Source of the DNA: Struthio camelus
Taxonomy: Eukaryota; Chordata; Aves; Struthioniformes; Struthionidae
Direction of reading: 5' to 3'
NCBI RefSeq assembly: GCF_040807025.1
Contig: NC_090982.1
Coordinates: 78,037,931-78,101,930 of the forward strand
Length of the DNA stretch: 64,000 bases
Positions 4,548 through 64,000 of the stretch are shown here, piece by piece; positions within the stretch are counted from its first letter, which is position 1; each line of letters opens with the position of its first letter. The position numbers and the translations under genes were made by a program. The notes beneath the pieces were generated by a model that was given only the letters and a program-made list of their open reading frames with translations, searched no databases and was not told where the DNA came from.

Positions 4548-4679
4548 GTGGGTCCGTGACCTCACAGTGGTGGATCCGTGACCTCACAGCGGTGGATCCG
4601 TGACCTCACAGCGGTGCGTCTGTGACCTCACAGCAGTGGGTTCGTGACCTCACAGCAGCAGGTCTGTGGCCTCACAGTG
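4548..4679 (+). repeat. Six tandem 22-bp units carrying a CRE-like TGACCTCA
   Basis: Six units of exactly 22 bp start at 4548, 4570, 4592, 4614, 4636 and 4658. Units 2 and 3 are identical and the others differ at a few bases. The core TGACCTCAC is intact in units 1-5; unit 6 has TGGCCTCA. TGACCTCA is one base from the palindromic CRE TGACGTCA and also contains a nuclear-receptor half site (AGGTCA on the other strand). The 22-bp period is close to two helical turns, so the cores would face the same side of the DNA. The array ends 77 bp before the start codon of the SPATA31-like gene. A promoter role is inferred; the repeat itself is plainly visible. Confidence 0.9.
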
Positions 4680-4756
4680 GTACCCATGGGGATCGCTCCG
4701 CACCCCCTCCGCCTGCCCGGCCCGGCCCGGCCCGGCCCGTCGCGGCCCGTGGCGCC
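4680..4756 (+). promoter_or_regulatory. GC-rich probable core promoter and 5' UTR of the SPATA31-like gene
   Basis: Between the 22-bp array and the start codon the sequence is GC-rich and CpG-rich and holds five perfect GCCCG units at 4715-4739. I see no TATA box. This suits a CpG-type promoter, but the transcription start cannot be placed from sequence alone. Confidence 0.45.
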
Positions 4757-7700
4757 ATGCTGGGCGCCCTGGGGCCGGCGCTGCACCGTGGCCTGGCCCC
4801 TCTCGGCACCAGCGGTGCCCTCCTCGGCCCCGGCCTCCTGCTGCTGGCGGCCGCTGCGGCCCTGCTCGCCGCCGGCCGCCGCCGCCGCCACCGCCGCCAG
4901 GTATGGGCCAGGTCGGGCCGGGGTGGAGAGGGGAGGGAGGTGCCGGGGGTGCGTCCTGCCAAGTCCCTTCTGGTCTGGTCCCATTGCTGTGCTCCTGTGC
5001 CCGCAGAGCGGTGGCCGCGGCTGGTGGCGCCGGCGGCAGGCGCTGGGCGAGGGCCCCGGTCCCGGCCCCGGTCCGGAGGTGCATCCCACCGGCAGCAGCA
5101 GCAGCAGCACCGGGGCCGAGCCGCGGTGCCGCCGGGCCGGCTGCGCCCGCTGCGCGGCGGCCGCCCGGGAGCTGCAGCGGCGGGTGCTGGCGGCGCGGGC
5201 CGGGCCGGCGGCCGGGCTGGGGCCGCGCTCGGTGGCCTCGTGGGGCTCCAGCACGTGGCGGGCGGCCTGGTGGGACCTGGAGGAGCTGGTGCGGGCGGGC
5301 GGCCTCTCCTGGGGCTCCTCCAGCAGCGACAGCGCGGCGGGCTCGGCCCGGCGGGGCGGGCGCTCGGGGCACCGCTGCCCCTTCTGCCCCCCGCCCCGGG
5401 GCCGGGCCGCCCCCTCGGAGCCGCAGCCGGAGCCGGAGCCGGGGCCGAGCCCCCCTCGGAGCCGGAGCGCCGCGGCCCCGGGCCCGGAGGGACGAGCCCC
5501 CGCCGGGCGCGGAGCCGCTCGCCCGCCGGGCTCCGAGCGGGACGGCCGGGCCTCTCCGTCCCTGCAGAGCCACCTGGCTCGGAAAGGCCTGGAGATCTGG
5601 CTGGGGGCGCTGCCCGGGCCGGTGCGGCGGTCGCAGCAGCGAGCCGCCCTGCGGCAGGGCCGCCCCGGCCTGCCCAAGCCCATCGGCCCGGGGCAGGCCC
5701 GGCCCCTGGCCCGGCGGCGGCTCTGCCCCTGGCTGCAGGGCAAGGCCGACGCCGTGGCCGCCAACGTGCTGCAGAAGCACCTCCAGGGGCTCTGGGGGGT
5801 CCCCAACCCCACCGAGGAGTCCCTGGCCCGCCTGGTGCCCTGCCCGCCGCCGCTGCTCGCCCCCCTGGACCCGGGGCCGCCCCGGGGCCCGCCGGCGCCC
5901 CGCTCCGCCCCGGCCTCCTCCGCCGGCTCTTCCCCGGGCGCCGGGACGCGGGGGCCCGGCCGGCCCCCCCGGCGCCTCCAGCAGCAGCCGGCCCCCGAGC
6001 CCCCCGGGAGGGCGGCCGGGGGCGGCGAGGCCGCCGGCGGAGCCGAAGATCCCCCCGCCGGGGCCCGCTCCTCCGCCGGGCGCGCGCCGGGCAGCGCGGC
6101 GCGGGACGGCCCCCGGCGCCGGGGCGGGGGGCTGCCCCCCAGCGCCCAGGAGCCCCCGGGGGGGCCGCTGGCTCCGGGCACGGCCGCCCCCAGCCCCGAG
6201 CTGCCCAGCCCGGCCGCCGGGCCGGCAGGAGCGGCCGCGCCGAAGGCCGGCGCCGACCTCGAGGCCGATTCCTCCGCCGGCGAGGACGGGAGCCGGCCGG
6301 GCGCCGCGGGGCCCGTCGGCGCGTCGAAGCCGGAGCTGAGCCGCGACGTCCGCCGCCGGCTGTGGCTGCACGCGGCGAGGAAGTGCCTGGAGACGCGGCT
6401 GCGGATGCTCCCCGCCGCGGTGCGGCGGTCCTTGGAAGCGTCGCGGCCGGCGCCGCCCCAGCTCCCGCCGGAGCGCCTCTGCCCGCCGGAGCCGGCGGCG
6501 CGGCCGCGGCCGGGGAGGTCGCCGGGGGGCCGGCGCCCGCCGCCCGTCCACATCGCGGTGCCCGAGGCCCTGTTCCTGCCCGAGGAGCAGCGCGAGGCCC
6601 TGGAGCTGCACGTCCGCGCCAAGCGGCTGCAGCGCCGCGGGGACCTGCTCGGCCCCCGGCCCGGCCCGGCGCCGCCGGGCGAGGAGGAGGGCGGCGGGGC
6701 GGCCCCCGGGGCCGGCTCCCTGCCCGGCGCGCTCGGCGGCGCCGGCGACGAGGCGGCCGCCACCAGCGAAGCCCCGGGGAAGAGCCGGGGGACGCCGAAG
6801 CCCTGGGCAGGGCCGGCGGCCGCGGTGGTCTCTCCGGTCCTCGTCCCCGCGGCTGCCGGCTCGGCCAGGGGGGACGCGGCGGCGGCGCCGCCGTTTCTGG
6901 AGAAGGAGGCGAGAGCGAGCGCGGAGGCGAGGAGCCGGCCGCAGATGGAGGCGCAGGCAGGGGAGGAGGAGGAGGAGGCGAACGCCCGCGGCCGGGAGCC
7001 GCAGCCCGCCTGGGGCCTCGCCGCGTCGCCGGAGGAGCCGCCGGCCGGGACGGAGGAGAGACCCAGCGCAGCGGCGCCGGCGGCCCTCGCCACGGCGCAG
7101 GAGCCCCCGGCCGCCAGCGAGGGGCCGGCCCAGCGGCAGGGCGTCCTTGCGCGGTGCCGTGCCCCCCGGCAGGGAGCCCCGCACGGGGACCGCAGCCCCC
7201 CGCGGCAGGGCCGGGGCTGCTCGCCGCCGGCCTCCGTGGCCACGCTGCGCTGGAGCAGGAGGCAGATCCTGCGGGCGCTCGAGTCCGGCCTGCAGGAAAT
7301 GGCCCAGAGCCGGAGCCAGCGGGACGGGACGGAGACACCTGTTCCCGAGCAGCCTCCTTCCCCTCCTTCACACCTGGAGGCCCAGCCCCAGATGGTGGAG
7401 GGGCCCTTGGGTGCCTGGGGCTGCTGTGGGGCCCCCCCATGCTGTTGCCCACAGCCCCAAACGGAGGAGTCATGGGCACTCCTGGCCCCCCACAGCCCTT
7501 CATGGCCACGCCAGCAGCATCATCCTCCAGCAGAGGGGACGGGCAAGGGGTCCATGGCTGCCAGGTGCCCAGCACCCTCTCCATCCCTGCCGGAGGCTCA
7601 GGGACCAGCAGCACTCAGCACTCCCTCTCCAGGCTCAGCAGCTGGGACAGGGACAGATGCCAGCAGCAAGAAGAAGGCACCGAACATGGCCAGGGACACA

Positions 7701-8045
7701 GGAGCCAGCCCTGTGGAGCAGCGGTGCTGGGTCCCTGGTGTCGCAGTGGGGACTGTGCTGCCTTGGGGCCTTGGGGGCCATGTGCCTGGTGAGGAGCACG
7801 GGATGCCAGGAGGCACGCGGGAAGGGAGAGGCTTGAAGACACCAGAAGAGCAACCATCTGTGCGGGAAGCCGAGCAAAGGAAGGGGGTTATTGCCTGGAT
7901 GGCACAGGGCTGCACCCGGGATGCTGGAGAAGAGACCATCGCTTGGAGCGGAGACGTGAAAGACTGCACAGGCGGCTCCTGGGATGTTTGGGAGGGATCG
8001 CAGTGGGTCCGGGAAGGACAAGCATGGGAAGACAGAGGGGGATGA
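4757..8045 (+). CDS. SPATA31/FAM205 (SPATA31F)-like single-pass membrane protein, 1060 aa
   Basis: Two coding exons: 4757-4900 and 5007-8045, joined across a 106-bp GT-AG intron in phase 0. Exon 1 gives a 48-residue start with one hydrophobic segment (about residues 20-39) followed by an Arg/His-rich stretch, the usual N-terminal anchor of this family. Exon 2 has a Cys cluster at residues 89-97 (C89, C94, C97), a second CxxC at 172/175, and family repeats: 'LARKGLEIWLGALPGPVRRS' near 238, 'ARKCLETRLRMLPAAVRRS' near 505, 'FLPEEQREALELHVRAKRLQ' near 571, and 'LRWSRRQILRALESGLQEM' near 795. Mammalian SPATA31 proteins act in spermatogenesis; the bird role is unknown. The body is Pro/Ala/Gly/Arg-rich because the exon is extremely GC-rich. 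The last 220 residues are less biased and match nothing I know, so the true C-terminus is less certain. Its place beside CCL21 matches mammalian FAM205A. An acceptor-like site at 5566-5567 would allow an alternative exon split. The start codon was chosen for the anchor and the gcgccATG context. Confidence 0.82.
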
Positions 8046-8075
8046 AAAGGTCTGGACCATTTGTCCTATAGTCCC

Positions 8076-28106: not shown

Positions 28107-29509
28107 ATGGCTCTGCGCCTTCTCCTGCCGCTGCTCCTGCTGGCCGCTGCCCTCCTCGTCTACCCGGCTCGAGGTGAGGGGCTGCAAACCCCCGGTGTCC
28201 AGACTTGGGGGGGGGGGGGGGATGGTGCACGGGTCGGAGTGCCCTAAGGGGCTGTGCAGGGTGCTGAGCCCCTGGGTGCAGGCTGCCAGCTGGAAGGCCT
28301 GCGCGTGTGACCGGATTGCAGCGTGTCCCCCTGCGTGCATGTGTCTGCGTGGCTGGGGTGCGCTGTGCGCATGCAGTGTTTGCAGCGCTTTGCCGTGCAG
28401 ATATGCGTGTGCATGGCTGGCCGGCAGGGTTTACTCGTAGTGCTTGTGCTGCGTTCATGCGTGGCGGGGGGGGGGGTGCCCATGCCTGTGCACGCGGTTG
28501 GAGTCGGCGCGTAGCGTTTGCAGTGCGTTCACGGGCAGGGGTGCGCGTGCGCGGCTGGCTTGCAGTACGCCGGTGGTGCTTGCCATGCGTTCCCACGCGG
28601 TGTGAGTGCATGTGTGTGCGCGCACGTGTGTGCGCGTGCTGCGCTAGCTCTTCCCCTGAGGACTGCCCTGCTTACCTCAGGCCAGGGAGAAGCAGCAGTT
28701 GTGGCTGGCAGGGCAGTGGTGGCGGTGGGTGGCAGGGGCAGAAGAATGATTTTCAGCTCCTTTGCAAGGAGCCCCTCTCTGCCTCAGTTTCCTCACCAAA
28801 AAACCTGGCGTCACGTCTCCCTGGGGCAGGGTCTGACCTGCAACAGGGAGTGGGGGCTGAGGGCTCCCATCGTCACGTGGCTGCCCCAGCACCTCTCCAG
28901 TCTCTCTGGTGCTGATGGCACCGACGTGCATCCCCGGAGGGCAGAGCCCTGAGCCTGTGGATGCTCGCCCCCACCACCAAAGGGGTTGCTCCTAACGGGG
29001 GCTTTCTGCAAGACCTGCTGTGGTTCCCTTACCTTGAGCTGGCCACGTTACGGTCCCGCAGTGCTGGAAAGCTGCCCCGGGTCAGGTCTAAAATCCCACG
29101 TGTCCCCCCTTGTCCCCCAGGCATAGGCAGCCAAGCCTCCGACTGCTGCCTGAAGAACAGCAGGAAGGTCATCCCGCATGGCTGGGTGAAGTCCTACAGC
29201 CTACAGGGACCTGACTCAGGCTGCCTGCTGCGTGCCGTTGTGTGAGTACCCTGGCTGGGTGGGAGCCATCCGGAGCAGGTGGGTCCTCCCGACCTGTCAC
29301 CCCTGTAGCCTCCCGTCCACCTCCATAGCAGCCCCACAGCAAACCTTTCTGCCTCGACCCCCAGGTTCACCACCAAGAAGAATAAGAAGATCTGCGCCTC
29401 CCCGACCGACACGGCCGTCCAGAAGCTGATGCAGAAGCTGGACAAGAAGAAAGCGCAGCCCGCAGCATCCAGCAGGAAAGCCTCGCGGCAGAGGGGGCGG
29501 CGCACCTAG
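28107..29509 (+). CDS. CCL21-like CC chemokine (CCR7 ligand), 110 aa
   Basis: Coding exons are 28107-28173, 29121-29241 and 29365-29509, all with GT-AG introns in phases 1 and 2, the standard CC-chemokine pattern. The product starts with a leucine-rich signal peptide (about residues 1-23). The mature chain has the adjacent cysteines C31-C32 in a DCCL motif typical of CCR7 ligands, then C57 and C73, giving the two usual disulfides. The C-terminus after 'VQKLMQKLDK' is a 20-residue Lys/Arg-rich tail, fitting heparan-sulfate binding. Mammalian CCL21 has a longer tail with an extra cysteine pair; here the tail has no cysteine and the stop lies in exon 3. CCL21 is made by lymphoid stroma and endothelium and recruits T cells and dendritic cells. 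The neighbouring CCL19 gene and the SPATA31-like gene support orthology with the 9p13.3 locus. Confidence 0.95.
28207..28221 (+). repeat. Run of 15 G in CCL21 intron 1
   Basis: A G15 homopolymer begins 34 bp after the exon 1 donor site. It may form a G-quadruplex near the start of the transcript. Another run of about 10 G lies near 28467. Confidence 0.9.
28310..28650 (+). repeat. GT/GC-rich degenerate repeat in CCL21 intron 1
   Basis: About 340 bp rich in alternating purine-pyrimidine words (TGCGTGCATGTGTCTGCGTG, GTGTGTGCGCGCACGTGTGT) with loosely recurring pieces such as 'tgcgttc', 'ggctggc' and 'gcagtg'. It reads as a decayed minisatellite. Alternating GC/GT tracts of this kind can adopt Z-DNA; the last 50 bp (about 28595-28650) are the best candidate. 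Confidence 0.6.
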
Positions 29510-37572: not shown

Positions 37573-40316
37573 ATGCAGCACCCGCATCTTCTGTGCATCA
37601 GCCTCCTGGTGCTGGGACATGTCCTGGACGGTAAGAGGGAACCTCTCGGGTGCCTTGCTTGCAGAAGGGAATGGAACCAGCTTCTAGCCCCCTTTTGCTT
37701 TTCCAGCAGACATTTAGAGGGACCCACTGCTGGGAGTCTGTCACAGCCCTCCTGAGTCATCTGCTTGCATCCTATCCCAGAGGAACTCTGTGCTGCCTAA
37801 AGTCCAGGAAGGATCCTGCAGGGCATGAGGGGGGAGGGCTGGACTTGGGAAAGGCGGTGGAGCAATCCTGCCTCCCAGTGCCCTAGCCCAGTCTGTGCAG
37901 ACCAGACTGGGATGGTCTCAGCCCCTTTTCCCCCTGCGGGAGCAGGACTGCTGCAGGTCCAGCACCTCCGGCACACCAGGGGAAATGTGTTCCCCCTGGC
38001 AGTGGAAAGGAAGCTGTCTCTTTGGTGTGGGGTAGCCCCGGGACGAGCAAATAGCTCCCGGGTCTGCAATGCTGCAGGGAGTTATAGTCATCCCAGGGCA
38101 TTGCCAGCCCTGCTGGGCATTAACAGTAAATAGAGCATTTGCTTGGAGGATGGCTGGGCTCCCCTACCCCGCCACGAAGCGCAGATAGTTGTGTCCCTCA
38201 GCTATAACGGGACTGATCAGTGTGGGGTGGGCTAGTAATGGGGTGATTGCAAAAGCAGGCATATAGCAAATATAGACAAAGACATTCCCAGCCCCTTGGG
38301 GACAGATGTCTTCAGTATCTGTATCACAGCGCCCCGGAGCCAGGCGAATGCTTTCGTCCTGCCCTGCCCAGCTGGCAGGCACTGGCTCCGGGGTTGCAGG
38401 AGGGAGCTACGTGTGCAGGAGGGGCGCCCTCCTCCAGCCTGTTCTTTTTCACTTTCTTTGCTTTCGGTCGGAAGGAGGCAAAGGGCTCCCAGCGCCAGGG
38501 AGTGGGTCCAATAAAACTTGAGCGTGCATTTGCGATCAGGGCTGTGCGCAAGGGCACGGCTCGCTGTGGCAGTGGAAGCACGGAGCTCTGCACTGAGCTA
38601 GCAGGGACACCATCCCACTCAGCTCCACGTGGGGCATGGTTCAGATGGACTCCTTCAGATGGAGCCCACCTGCTTAGACAACAGCAATATTCCCCAGCCA
38701 GAAATCACTCTTGCTTTTCATACTCCAGCCCAATTTGTTGCTTCTGAGCTCAGCCTGGCTGAGCACAAAGAACTCACTCCACAAGTGCTAGTCCCAAGGG
38801 GACCAGGGTGTAGGGAGCTCAGATTGGCAGGATCACCTGGGGGTGGTGAAGCTGCTGCTGCCCACAGGGAACAACCTCAGCCCACATGTTGCATTCCTCC
38901 CCCAGTGTCTAGTGGGAACAATGTCGTGGACTGCTGCCTGCGGACGAGTCAGAATCGCATCCCCCAGCGGATAGTGCAGGACTACCGGATACAGCTGGTG
39001 CAGGACGGCTGTGTCATCCCTGCCACAGTGTAAGACACCCAGGCTGGCCATGCGGCAGGGAGGCGCTCTGCAAGGAGGGAGGCAGAGCAGGGTGGAGGGA
39101 GGGTAAGAAGAGAGATGGGGCTGAATTTGGAGACAGGGGAATGGGAAGAGAAGGGAAGACCCTGGAGATCAGAGGCCCAAACAGAGTAGGAGAGACCTGC
39201 TGAGAGGGGAACACCTGAGAAAAAAGACAGGGAAGAAACTCATCTCAAGTCAGGGCAGAGGAGGGCAGTGCTTTACCCTGTGTCCTGTGCCAGAGCAGTG
39301 GTGGAGGCAACGGGTGAGAGCTCTGGCCATGCTGGAGAATCCCCAGGGTTTCTCGCTCAGGTCTTTTTTTTCCCGTGGACCTGGCAGGTTCATTACCATG
39401 AAGGGCAAGCGCCTCTGTGCTCCCCTGCAAGCCCCATGGGTGATTCACCTCCGAGAGAAGGTGGACGCCAACTCCGCCAGGAAGGTAAGGACTAGCCCTC
39501 AGCCTGCCTTGGCTCAGCTCTGTGGCCAAGCATTGGGGTAGCCCACGGGCAGGTTTAACCAGTCACCAGATAGCATTTTCCCAGTCTGACTGGGGTGCTG
39601 GTCAGAGCCGGGGAGGCTGTTACAGCATACCATGGATAGGCATGGATAATTGGTCTCAGTTTCCATCCCTCCTCCCTCAAACTGGGATCGGTGTGCGTCC
39701 TCTGCAATCCCTCTTCCACCCCAAATAAATCCAGCCCTGGCACTACTGTATGCAATAACTACCTTCTGCCAGGCTGGGAAAGGCCACTGCTTCCAGGGCC
39801 TCCCTGGGCTGAGATGCAACACATACGTCTTCACAGGGGCAAGGGGAAAGTTTGCAATGAGTTTGGTGGGTGCTTTGCAAGTCCTCGTAGGCATGTCCAT
39901 GACCCTGGCGGTGGGCAGCCCCTGCCAGGTCCCAGGTTGCCTCCTTGCCTCAGAGATGTGGTGCTGCAGTGATTTGGGAAGGATGAAGAAAGCAGCCCTT
40001 ACCTTTTCAGCTGCGCCTCTCTGCATCTCTTTTGGAGAGTTTGGTTTCCCACAGCAGTGCCAACCCTTGGCGGCCCAGGACATTTGGATGCCAAAAGAGG
40101 CTTGCGGCCCTGTGCAAGGATGCCCAGGATGAGGCTGCGGTGCTTTTGTAAGCAGATGCACACAGCTGTCCCTCCACTTTGCCACCGTGGCTTGGCCAGG
40201 GGAGGAAATCCCCAGTGACTGCCCAGACCCCAGGGAAGGGACTCCTGCCCCTGAGGCATCACGCTCACCCACTGCTGTATTTTTCATTTCCTCAGGCCAA
40301 ATCTCAAGGCATATAG
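37573..40316 (+). CDS. CCL19-like CC chemokine (CCR7 ligand), 99 aa
   Basis: Coding exons are 37573-37630, 38906-39029, 39388-39484 and 40296-40316, with GT-AG introns in phases 1, 2 and 0. The product has a short signal peptide (about residues 1-20), the DCCL motif with C29-C30, then C55 and C71, and the CC-chemokine core with 'RIVQDYRIQLVQDGC', 'VFITMKGKRLCAPLQAPWV' and a C-terminal helix beginning near 'LREKV'. Length and exon count match mammalian CCL19 (98 aa, four exons). It lacks the long basic tail of CCL21, as expected for the more soluble CCR7 ligand. The last exon codes for only six residues (AKSQGI). CCL19 is made by stromal and dendritic cells and guides CCR7-positive lymphocytes and dendritic cells in T-cell zones. 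The start fits a good signal peptide; no upstream in-frame ATG gives a better one. Confidence 0.96.
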
Positions 40317-57180: not shown

Positions 57181-57234
57181 GGCAACAGTTTAGGAACTGC
57201 TGCATTTGGCAACAGTTTAGGAACTGCTGCATTT
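57181..57234 (+). repeat. Perfect 27-bp tandem duplication
   Basis: Two identical adjacent 27-bp units, each starting GGCAACAGTT and ending TGCATTT. The identity points to a recent slippage or duplication event. No function is suggested. Confidence 0.95.
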
Positions 57235-60743: not shown

Positions 60744-61144
60744 CACAGAATCACAGAATGGTTTAGGTTGGAAGGGACCTCTGGAGATCATCTAGTCCAA
60801 CCTCCCTGCTCAAGCAGGGACCTCTAGAGCATATTGCCCAGGGTCACATCCAGACGGGTTTTGAATATCTCCAGGGAAGGAGACTCCACCACCTCTCTGG
60901 GCAACCTGTTCCAATGCTCTGTCATCCTCACAGTCAAGAAGTTTTTTCTCAGGTTTAGGTGGAACTTCCTGTGGTTCAGTTTCTGCCCGTTGCCTCTTGT
61001 CCTGTTGCTGGGCACCACGGAGAAGAGACTGGCCTCATCCTCTTGACACCCTCCCTTCAGATACTTGTACACGTTGATGAGATCCCCTCTCAGTCTTCTC
61101 TTCTCCAGGCTGAACAGGCCCAGCTCTCGCAGTCTTTCTTCATT
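60744..61144 (-). mobile_element. CR1 LINE, 5'-truncated, well preserved 3' end
   Basis: The element lies on the minus strand, with its 3' end at the left marked by two CACAGAAT octamers (ATTCTGTG in sense), followed by the CR1 3' UTR and the end of its reverse-transcriptase frame. Read in sense, the frame gives '[20 protein letters not shown]', the usual CR1 C-terminus. It is cut off at the 5' side at about 61144, as most CR1 copies are. Its low divergence makes it the youngest CR1 copy in the window and the best evidence for an avian host. Confidence 0.93.
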
Positions 61145-62446: not shown

Positions 62447-64000
62447 ATGGATGCTTTCATGGGTAACGATCGCCGGCCCAAGCTCTTGGAGCAGTCCCTC
62501 GTGTCCGACGTACGTGAGGAGCTGAAGGAAGGGCTCTGGAGTGGGGGAGAAAGCACCATGTCCCAGATAAACAGCACCTTCCAGGTCAGCATCCTCAAGG
62601 GGCATCAGGGCCTTCCAGGTCGGCATCCTCCTGGGAGATCAGGGCCTTCCAGGTCAGCATCCTCCTGGGAGATCAGGGCCTTCCAGGTCGGCATCCTCCT
62701 GGGAGATCAGGGCCTTCCAGGTCAGCATCCTCCTGGGAGGTCAGAGCATCACAGAGGCACTGGTGGTGTCTCCTGCCCCAGGAGGTCCCAAGCGTAGACA
62801 TGGATCCGTCACTTTTAGCTTCATAGCATCTCAGTGCACTGGGGGCTGCTGGGCACAGAGGTGAATATACCAGTGTCCAGCATGTCTGAGGAGCTTAGCT
62901 GCTGCCATGTCCAGCAGCTCTCCCAGCGTGAAGCAAGGGCTGGGGTTGCTTGTGCCCTGGGAGGGCACTGTGTACTGTAATCCTGCAAAGGTGCACAAGA
63001 CTCCCAGTCATGTTTAATTTTGGCCAGTTGTTTTCAGGATACAGTGAGGGACCCAGTTGCATTGGCCTGTCTGTTTGTCTTCCCCAAGCGTGCAAAACCC
63101 TTGGGCCTGTTTAGTGTAATCCTGGAAACCCAGGGAGTACCTGAGTCCCTCAGCTGGTAGAGGAGCATTTGTGTAGGGCTAGGCTGTGCCGTTTGTGACT
63201 TCTCTTCTCTTGGTTCATCCTTGCAGACCAAGCAGCTGATGCAGCAGTTTGTGCAAGCGGGGGAATGTAAGGTGCAGCTGGTGGAAGGAGAGCAAGTAGG
63301 GTGCCTTCTTCCTCCCATCTCCCTGCTGGGAGCACGTTCCCCGTCCCTCCCAAAAGACATCTCTAAAAGTGTTTCCTGCTCTGTTTCAGTCCTCACAGCT
63401 CTGGAGACAGCTGGAGGAGAGGATGGATTTTCTGCCAAAGAGAAAAGAGAGAGGTCATCTCCAAGCAAGTGTCATGGCAGCATCTAGGAGATCTGGGTCA
63501 AGCTTGGGGGAGCACTGTGGGGGCTAAGGGTGGGGATCTAGGTGCTGCACAGCAGCAGAGTGTGCATGCGGGGGATATGTAGTGGGTACTGTTGTGCAAG
63601 AGATTTGGCTGCATGTCTCCCCCTGTGCCACCACAGTTCATGGCAGGTACATGAAACACTGAAGTCTTGGTTGGACAACAGGCCTGTTTTCAGTGTAAAA
63701 AAAGCTGGCAGGAAAGTACTGTGCTCTGTAAGCTCATCCAAAGTGCTGCTGCTGGTTCGAGGAAAGAACAGCCGTTTCCTGGGAGCATCATGAGCAACAA
63801 CGCTTGGGTACAGCTAAGCTGCTGGCTCTAGCCTCCTGGCAGCTCTGTGTTTGTGTGTTGGGCTCTTCCAGGCCTTGAAAGACAAAAAGTACCCTGGAGG
63901 CAGGGAGGGGGCCAGCCCCAGCAAAGAAAGAAAGAATCAATCTTTTAAAAAGTGCAGAAGGGAGAGGGGGCTACAGTGGGGGCACCAAGAAGAGATGTTT
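62447..64000 (+). CDS. Unrecognised helical/coiled-coil protein, first 137 residues (cut by window edge)
   Basis: Four coding exons fit together in phase 0: 62447-62584 (46 codons), 63227-63295 (23), 63390-63464 (25) and 63872 to the window end (43, still open). The start sits in a good gccATGG context. The chain opens with a charged, leucine-bearing stretch ('KLLEQSLVSDVREELKEGLW'), continues with helical 'TKQLMQQFVQ' and 'SSQLWRQLEERMDFL', and turns Lys/Arg-rich in exon 4 ('SPSKERKNQSFKKCRRERG'). This looks like a coiled coil followed by a basic linker. I do not recognise the family. A faint likeness to the N-terminal coil of the meiotic protein IHO1 (VSxVRE) is too weak to name it. The exon 1 donor lies in a five-fold repeat, and the exon 3 donor appears to be GC rather than GT (CAA|GCAAGT); it is the only choice that keeps exon 4 open. 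Confidence 0.6.
62577..62746 (+). repeat. Five tandem 34-bp units spanning a splice donor
   Basis: Units start at 62577, 62611, 62645, 62679 and 62713, each 34 bp. Unit 1 covers the exon 1/intron 1 junction (CCTTCCAG|GTCAGC), so every unit repeats a possible donor, with GT at 62585, 62619, 62653, 62687 and 62721. The base at donor position +4 alternates A, G, A, G, A, which suggests that a 68-bp pair was the unit of later expansion. All have C at +3, a weak donor. The fourth donor would add 102 bp in frame (34 residues); the second, third and fifth would shift the frame. Confidence 0.9.

Follow-up and report, generated by a model that had tools for sequence, protein, structure and literature searches.

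SPATA31 is a fast-evolving sperm family that has been studied mostly in mammals, and among the matches listed by our literature search on SPATA31, FAM205 and SPATA31F no title concerned a bird gene; bird annotation may still exist. A GC-rich open frame in a 64,000-nucleotide stretch of ostrich (Struthio camelus) DNA, hereafter the window, raises the question of whether birds carry such a gene. The answer we favour, and regard as likely, is that the frame belongs to a diverged SPATA31F/FAM205-like gene that lies at its ancestral position, flanked by PHF24 and CCL21, on a bird sex chromosome and exchanges sequence with an inverted paralogue by conversion.

The two exons join in frame into a product of 1060 aa with a single terminal stop (Table 1), so that the exon coordinates, GT-AG junction and product given in the initial annotation were reproduced exactly, and the extreme GC content that it had ascribed to the coding exon is borne out, at 79% for exon 2 and 84% over positions 5001-7000 (exon 1, 83%; intron, 70%). 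The donor is the sole site above 2 bits within 4757-5006, scored with a consensus matrix, and the acceptor has the richest pyrimidine tract (11 of 15) among the four candidates listed. The gene is found on both chromosome versions of the assembly, C41 (which carries the window) and C40, and both splice sites are kept on the latter. None of 500 simulations from a block-wise Markov model (median 602, maximum 975) reached the 1012 codons of the exon-2 frame. Other frames are also long at such GC, with an ORF of 1062 aa on the forward strand and ORFs of 905, 963 and 980 aa on the reverse strand, and ORF length alone is therefore weak evidence.

Table 1. Features of the gene and its surroundings, in window positions (aa, residues of the 1060-aa product).
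Feature	Positions	Strand	Remarks
22-bp tandem array, six units	4556..4687	+	core GTGACCTCACAG; candidate promoter
Exon 1	4757..4900	+	48 codons; start codon, hydrophobic segment, RRRRHRRQ; identical on C40
Predicted GT-AG intron	4901..5006	+	106 bp; GT donor at 4901, AG acceptor ending 5006
Exon 2	5007..8045	+	1012 codons + stop
Near-identical core	5039..7415	+	99.3% vs inverted paralogue C41:78677755-78680159; candidate gene-conversion tract
Cys-rich RCRRAGCARC	5124..5153	+	by eye resembles the DUF4599 CxxC part; no profile match
SPATA31 motif copy 1	5568..5642	+	aa 236-260; 4.5 bits, equal to best shuffle piece at most
Sub-threshold FAM75 match, motif copy 2	5760..5852	+	aa 300-330, profile 150-180, E 0.0089 (fragment aa 225-345); 6.5 bits
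SPATA31 motif copy 3	6369..6437	+	aa 503-525; 2.1 bits alone; predicted helices; matched by C3-only profile
Sub-threshold FAM75 match, motif copy 4	6555..6647	+	aa 565-595, profile 193-226, E 0.15 (fragment aa 489-601); 7.5 bits
Exon-2 stretch beyond core	7429..7722	+	79% identical to paralogue B
Possible poly(A) signal ATTAAA	8076..8081	+	
CCL21-like gene, three exons	28107..29509	+	exon 2 ends about 29241; Pfam IL8 6.4e-18
CCL19-like gene	37573..39484	+	3' end undefined; Pfam IL8 2.8e-17

The sequence features on which the initial annotation had based a SPATA31 assignment are all present, namely the hydrophobic segment followed by RRRRHRR (basic residues follow the N-terminal segment, aa about 20-47, as read by eye), paired Cys residues (aa 94/97 and 172/175), and KxLExxLxxLPxxVRRS motifs. 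A regular expression for the latter matches two sites in the six frames (5583-5633 and 6381-6431), and a second expression, of the H..K..GLP type, matches none in these frames. The assignment itself fared less evenly. Scanned whole, the 1060-residue product returned no Pfam family (E up to 10), which under the rule proposed in the initial annotation speaks against the assignment; it is a weak test because the same type of scan, given most of a 1073-aa open frame on another chromosome (C3), misses FAM75 there as well, where a genome search scores 23.7-25.4 bits. When the product was divided, three of ten fragments matched FAM75 (PF14650, SPATA31) and seven did not, every match lying below the 24-bit curated cut-off. 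The best fragments reach 16.0-16.2 bits, the two matched segments are collinear with the profile, and a long fragment spanning both gives E 0.0073; none of eight reversed or shuffled control fragments matches. In the fragment covering aa 489-601 the unrelated family Metal_resist (E 0.027) outscores FAM75. DUF4599 (PF15371) was not found in the whole protein or its fragments, a profile made from two pieces of it found no match either, and the five sub-cut-off places reported by a PF15371 genome search do not include the gene, nor do the three places reported for PF14650. With the FAM75 scores below the curated cut-off and DUF4599 not found, we do not file the gene as a certified SPATA31 member. 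Diverged members of the family can drop below Pfam's line, given that SPATA31G1 and SPATA31H1 were named by HGNC on Pfam-N matches, according to the available part of PMC12807706.

Motif profiles point to the family more directly. A profile of eight motif copies from human SPATA31F1 and SPATA31A sequences, both of which Pfam recognises, ranked the ORF first among 1957 window ORFs (E 0.0098; next 0.86), and its 13.1 bits compare with at most 6.2 bits in 1000 block shuffles. Because the best shuffle piece reaches 4.5 bits, no more than two motif copies out of four (7.5 and 6.5 bits) stand alone. A profile built without any human sequence, solely from a pair of motif copies in the C3 protein, again gave the ORF the top rank among the 1957, with E 2.3e-5 against 0.019 for the runner-up. 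It matched motifs 3 and 4, and by both profiles the repeated LE..H..K..(W)GLP..V..S motif is above chance in the product. The best local piece in a blastp comparison with the C3 protein was motif 4 (E 0.095), and a single-sequence structure model of aa 489-601 predicts helices at motifs 3 and 4 (pLDDT 73, pTM 0.28). No paralogue of the gene was found elsewhere in the window (best off-locus E 0.63). Together with the FAM75 fragments, these profiles leave a relation to the SPATA31 family well supported at the level of sequence. Whole-length pairwise searches with three human proteins were set aside as weak family evidence: the real protein ranked 377th of 501 with SPATA31A and 103rd among the 244 reported with SPATA31F3, whose best tblastn match was elsewhere, and came first with SPATA31F1, but at 3.6 vs 2.8 bits. 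Whereas SPATA31A spans the full FAM75 profile, the window gene has two pieces of ~30 residues. It resembles SPATA31A/C (FAM75A) and mouse Spata31 (VAD1.3/AEP1) in having these segments in the same order and, judging from the accessible text of PMC5338094, in having one very long coding exon.

The neighbourhood suggests which branch of the family is involved. PHF24 lies on the reverse strand about 21 kb upstream of the gene, 16 kb to the left of the window, and is followed in order by the gene, the CCL21-like gene and the CCL19-like gene, all on the forward strand. Human FAM205A presumably sits between PHF24 and CCL21/CCL19 in the same order and on the same strands, which supports the F/FAM205 identity proposed from the start. 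Seven of nine queries made from human neighbours (VCP, DNAJB5, CCL27, IL11RA, GALT, SIGMAR1 and PHF24) had no match in the window at E 0.01. With human SPATA31F1/FAM205A the gene shares the motifs, the N-terminal hydrophobic segment, the Cys pairs and, presumably, its flanks and orientation; it differs in having no detectable DUF4599, two exons vs the four that we take human FAM205 genes to have, a GC content of 79-84% and FAM75 scores below the cut-off. In chicken, CCL19 and CCL21 are on the Z, as stated in the portion of PMC1082905 at hand. The avian origin proposed in the initial annotation draws support from this location, from a CR1-type 3' end in the window and from the layout of the genome.

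An inverted paralogue (B) lies 635 kb from the gene (A) on C41, and has a counterpart on C40. Over the core of about 2377 positions, A and B differ by 10 mismatches on C41, as do the C41 and C40 versions of A, and the two versions of B differ by 8; crosswise pairs, and A and B on C40, differ by 12-16. Outside the core, identity between A and B falls to 81% in exon 1 and 79% at 7429-7722, and further out 4638-4702 alone could be aligned (77%). As the core is equally close between paralogues as between chromosome versions, and is set within old flanks, gene conversion is the simplest reading of its near-identity. Agreement between the GC drop and the end of the tract is only rough, and GC remains high in B past the tract, so that the two are not exactly coincident. 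Paralogue B has no intron and no ATG at A's start, its hydrophobic segment shares the reading frame of the core, and from the start of the core it runs for 1368 codons without a stop, ending in a different C-terminal tail with a Cys/His-rich end; this tail (575 aa) contains no Pfam family and no SPATA31 motif. A further fragment (C; C41:77198964-77199221) matches the gene's 3' end alone (7800-8049, 79%) and is taken as a relic because of upstream stops and shifts in its frame. None of the nine neighbour queries matches within 80 kb around B or 40 kb around C (E 0.001).

Several other explanations have to be weighed against this reading. GC-rich repeats are difficult to assemble, and the near-identity of the core could have arisen from reads of a single GC-rich locus being placed at both. 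We consider this improbable, as A can be told from B at four sites on C41 and C40 alike, 8-16 mismatches and indels of 6 bp set the copies apart, and their flanks are distinct. Similarly improbable is a SPATA31-family gene from outside the F group, such as an orthologue of SPATA31G1, which we take to lie in the same human region: the gene stands between PHF24 and CCL21, presumably the place of FAM205A, and among SPATA31A, SPATA31F1 and SPATA31F3 its best single-sequence match is SPATA31F1. In favour of such a placement, the subfamilies are not separable by sequence here, and SPATA31G1 itself owes its name to a Pfam-N match (PMC12807706, same part).

The remaining alternatives concern whether, and from where, the frame is translated. 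A homologous but no longer selected relic of SPATA31F, either a pseudogene or GC-rich non-coding sequence, would account for the flank substitutions, which look neutral: between A and B dN/dS is 0.70, differences fall 32/30/33 by codon position with no third-position excess, and frameshift indels of 1, 2 and 5 bp cancel out. That further frames are open too would also fit. In the core, A and B differ by 1 synonymous and 9 non-synonymous changes, and A on C41 differs from A on C40 by 3 and 9, so that neither comparison gives a sign of purifying selection, in small counts that conversion confuses. Fast evolution is usual in the SPATA31 family, which together with the smallness of the counts reduces their weight in favour of a pseudogene. 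Against loss of coding function, the core has no stop or frameshift in any of the four copies, where indels are of 6 bp, the frame is open on both chromosome versions, and exon 1 and the splice sites are unchanged on C40; a relic is, in our judgement, unlikely. Less probable still, and indeed very unlikely, is a single-exon gene that would begin in the exon-2 frame near 4686 and lack the membrane segment. The frame is already open from 4626 and paralogue B has no intron, yet a usable donor and acceptor are both kept on C40 and the hydrophobic segment of B is in frame with its core.

Upstream of the two-exon gene, 90-200 bp before the ATG (counted to the ATG rather than to a known start site), the core of the 22-bp array is a CRE with one mismatch in five of six units and TGGCCTCA in the sixth. 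Of the 22 positions, twelve agree in 71 of 72 cells, while nine of the ten others vary (Fisher p 2.9e-4, the core having been chosen afterwards); with the last unit set aside, since its end may fall outside, 0 of 12 core and 8 of 10 other positions vary. All six units are kept on C40, with one change. TGACcTCA occurs seven times in the 64-kb window, five of them in the array, a total of no great rarity in itself (4 of 100 shuffles). Paralogue B has two homologous units of 22-bp period, one with TGGCGTCA and one with the consensus CRE TGACGTCA, B's only one in 20 kb, and this textbook site makes a CRE likelier as the reading of the array than a nuclear-receptor half-site. The testis ACE promoter contains TGAGGTCA, the reverse of TGACCTCA; a literature search for TGAGGTCA with testis gave no relevant title. 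A CRE-like element of the ACE promoter is named in the title of one published reference. In mouse round spermatids, the available sections of PMC3091680 describe the majority of CREM sites as one-mismatch or half CREs, a significant fraction as having neither, and occupancy as centred near -150 bp; by the definition given there, TGACCTCA contains no half-CRE.

Taken together, the locus probably holds a diverged avian SPATA31F orthologue that would be expressed in spermatids and evolves in concert with its twin, as judged from sequence and position. Expression would be brought about by CREM acting on the 22-bp repeat, and the product would be a membrane-anchored spermatid scaffold. Its extended tail would be largely disordered, and short helices within it (LE..L..LP..V..S) may dock partners such as syntaxin and actin. 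By analogy with mouse Spata31, docking could take place at the interface of acrosome, Golgi and nucleus, and conversion biased towards G/C would have produced the extreme GC. Syntaxin and beta-actin are binding partners of the mouse protein, and knock-out animals are infertile, as reported in the part of PMC5338094 available to us, and a human acrosomal set contains SPATA31F3 and SPATA31F2P (PMC12101322, in part). Human SPATA31A/C protein was observed in the nucleolus and nucleus (PMC5338094), a poor fit with a membrane anchor.

The genome search with PF14650 also marked two C3 places as over the cut-off, each in a 1073-aa open frame, scoring 25.4 bits and 23.7 bits (32.1 counting neighbours); 14 control genomes gave no match. 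The two copies (C3:18262321 and C3:18477139) are inverted and about 215 kb apart. They share a sharply bounded block of 5.74 kb at 99.7% identity, past which a comparison of 14.4 kb per copy shows no similarity at E 1e-20. Like the window gene they carry the same motifs and form an inverted near-identical pair; unlike it, they are at or near the FAM75 cut-off, lie on another chromosome and have no consensus CRE in 14.4 kb of each copy. The third place reported, a FAM75-like match of 20.4 bits with three stops at C41:54640842-54641045, is probably a relic.

A bolder generalisation, possible but in our view rather doubtful, is that bird SPATA31 genes are inverted twins homogenised by conversion, with one pair on the sex chromosome and one on C3. 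A G/C bias of conversion would have raised the sex-chromosome pair to 84% GC and made it undetectable by profile, while amplified CREs would keep it expressed in spermatids. If true, the origin and sperm role of SPATA31 predate the mammal-bird split; a syntenic bird gene and a second member on another chromosome would date the family back to the amniote ancestor. With its twin, the gene would allow a clean test of whether conversion causes extreme GC in bird genes, and the CRE repeats open spermatid expression to direct testing.

Elsewhere in the window, 8 of 17 ORFs with raised third-position GC were scanned against Pfam, one giving a sub-threshold Pox_F17 match (E 0.017) and seven no match. 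A 34-bp tandem repeat occupies 62577-62744 (4.9 copies, 93% matches), and a 27-bp unit present in two perfect copies at 57181-57234 overlaps a 99-aa ORF that has no Pfam match. At 60744-60789, on the reverse strand, a CR1-type 3' end agrees with a 24-letter pattern (one N) at 0 mismatches and is followed by an octamer tail with 2 mismatches.
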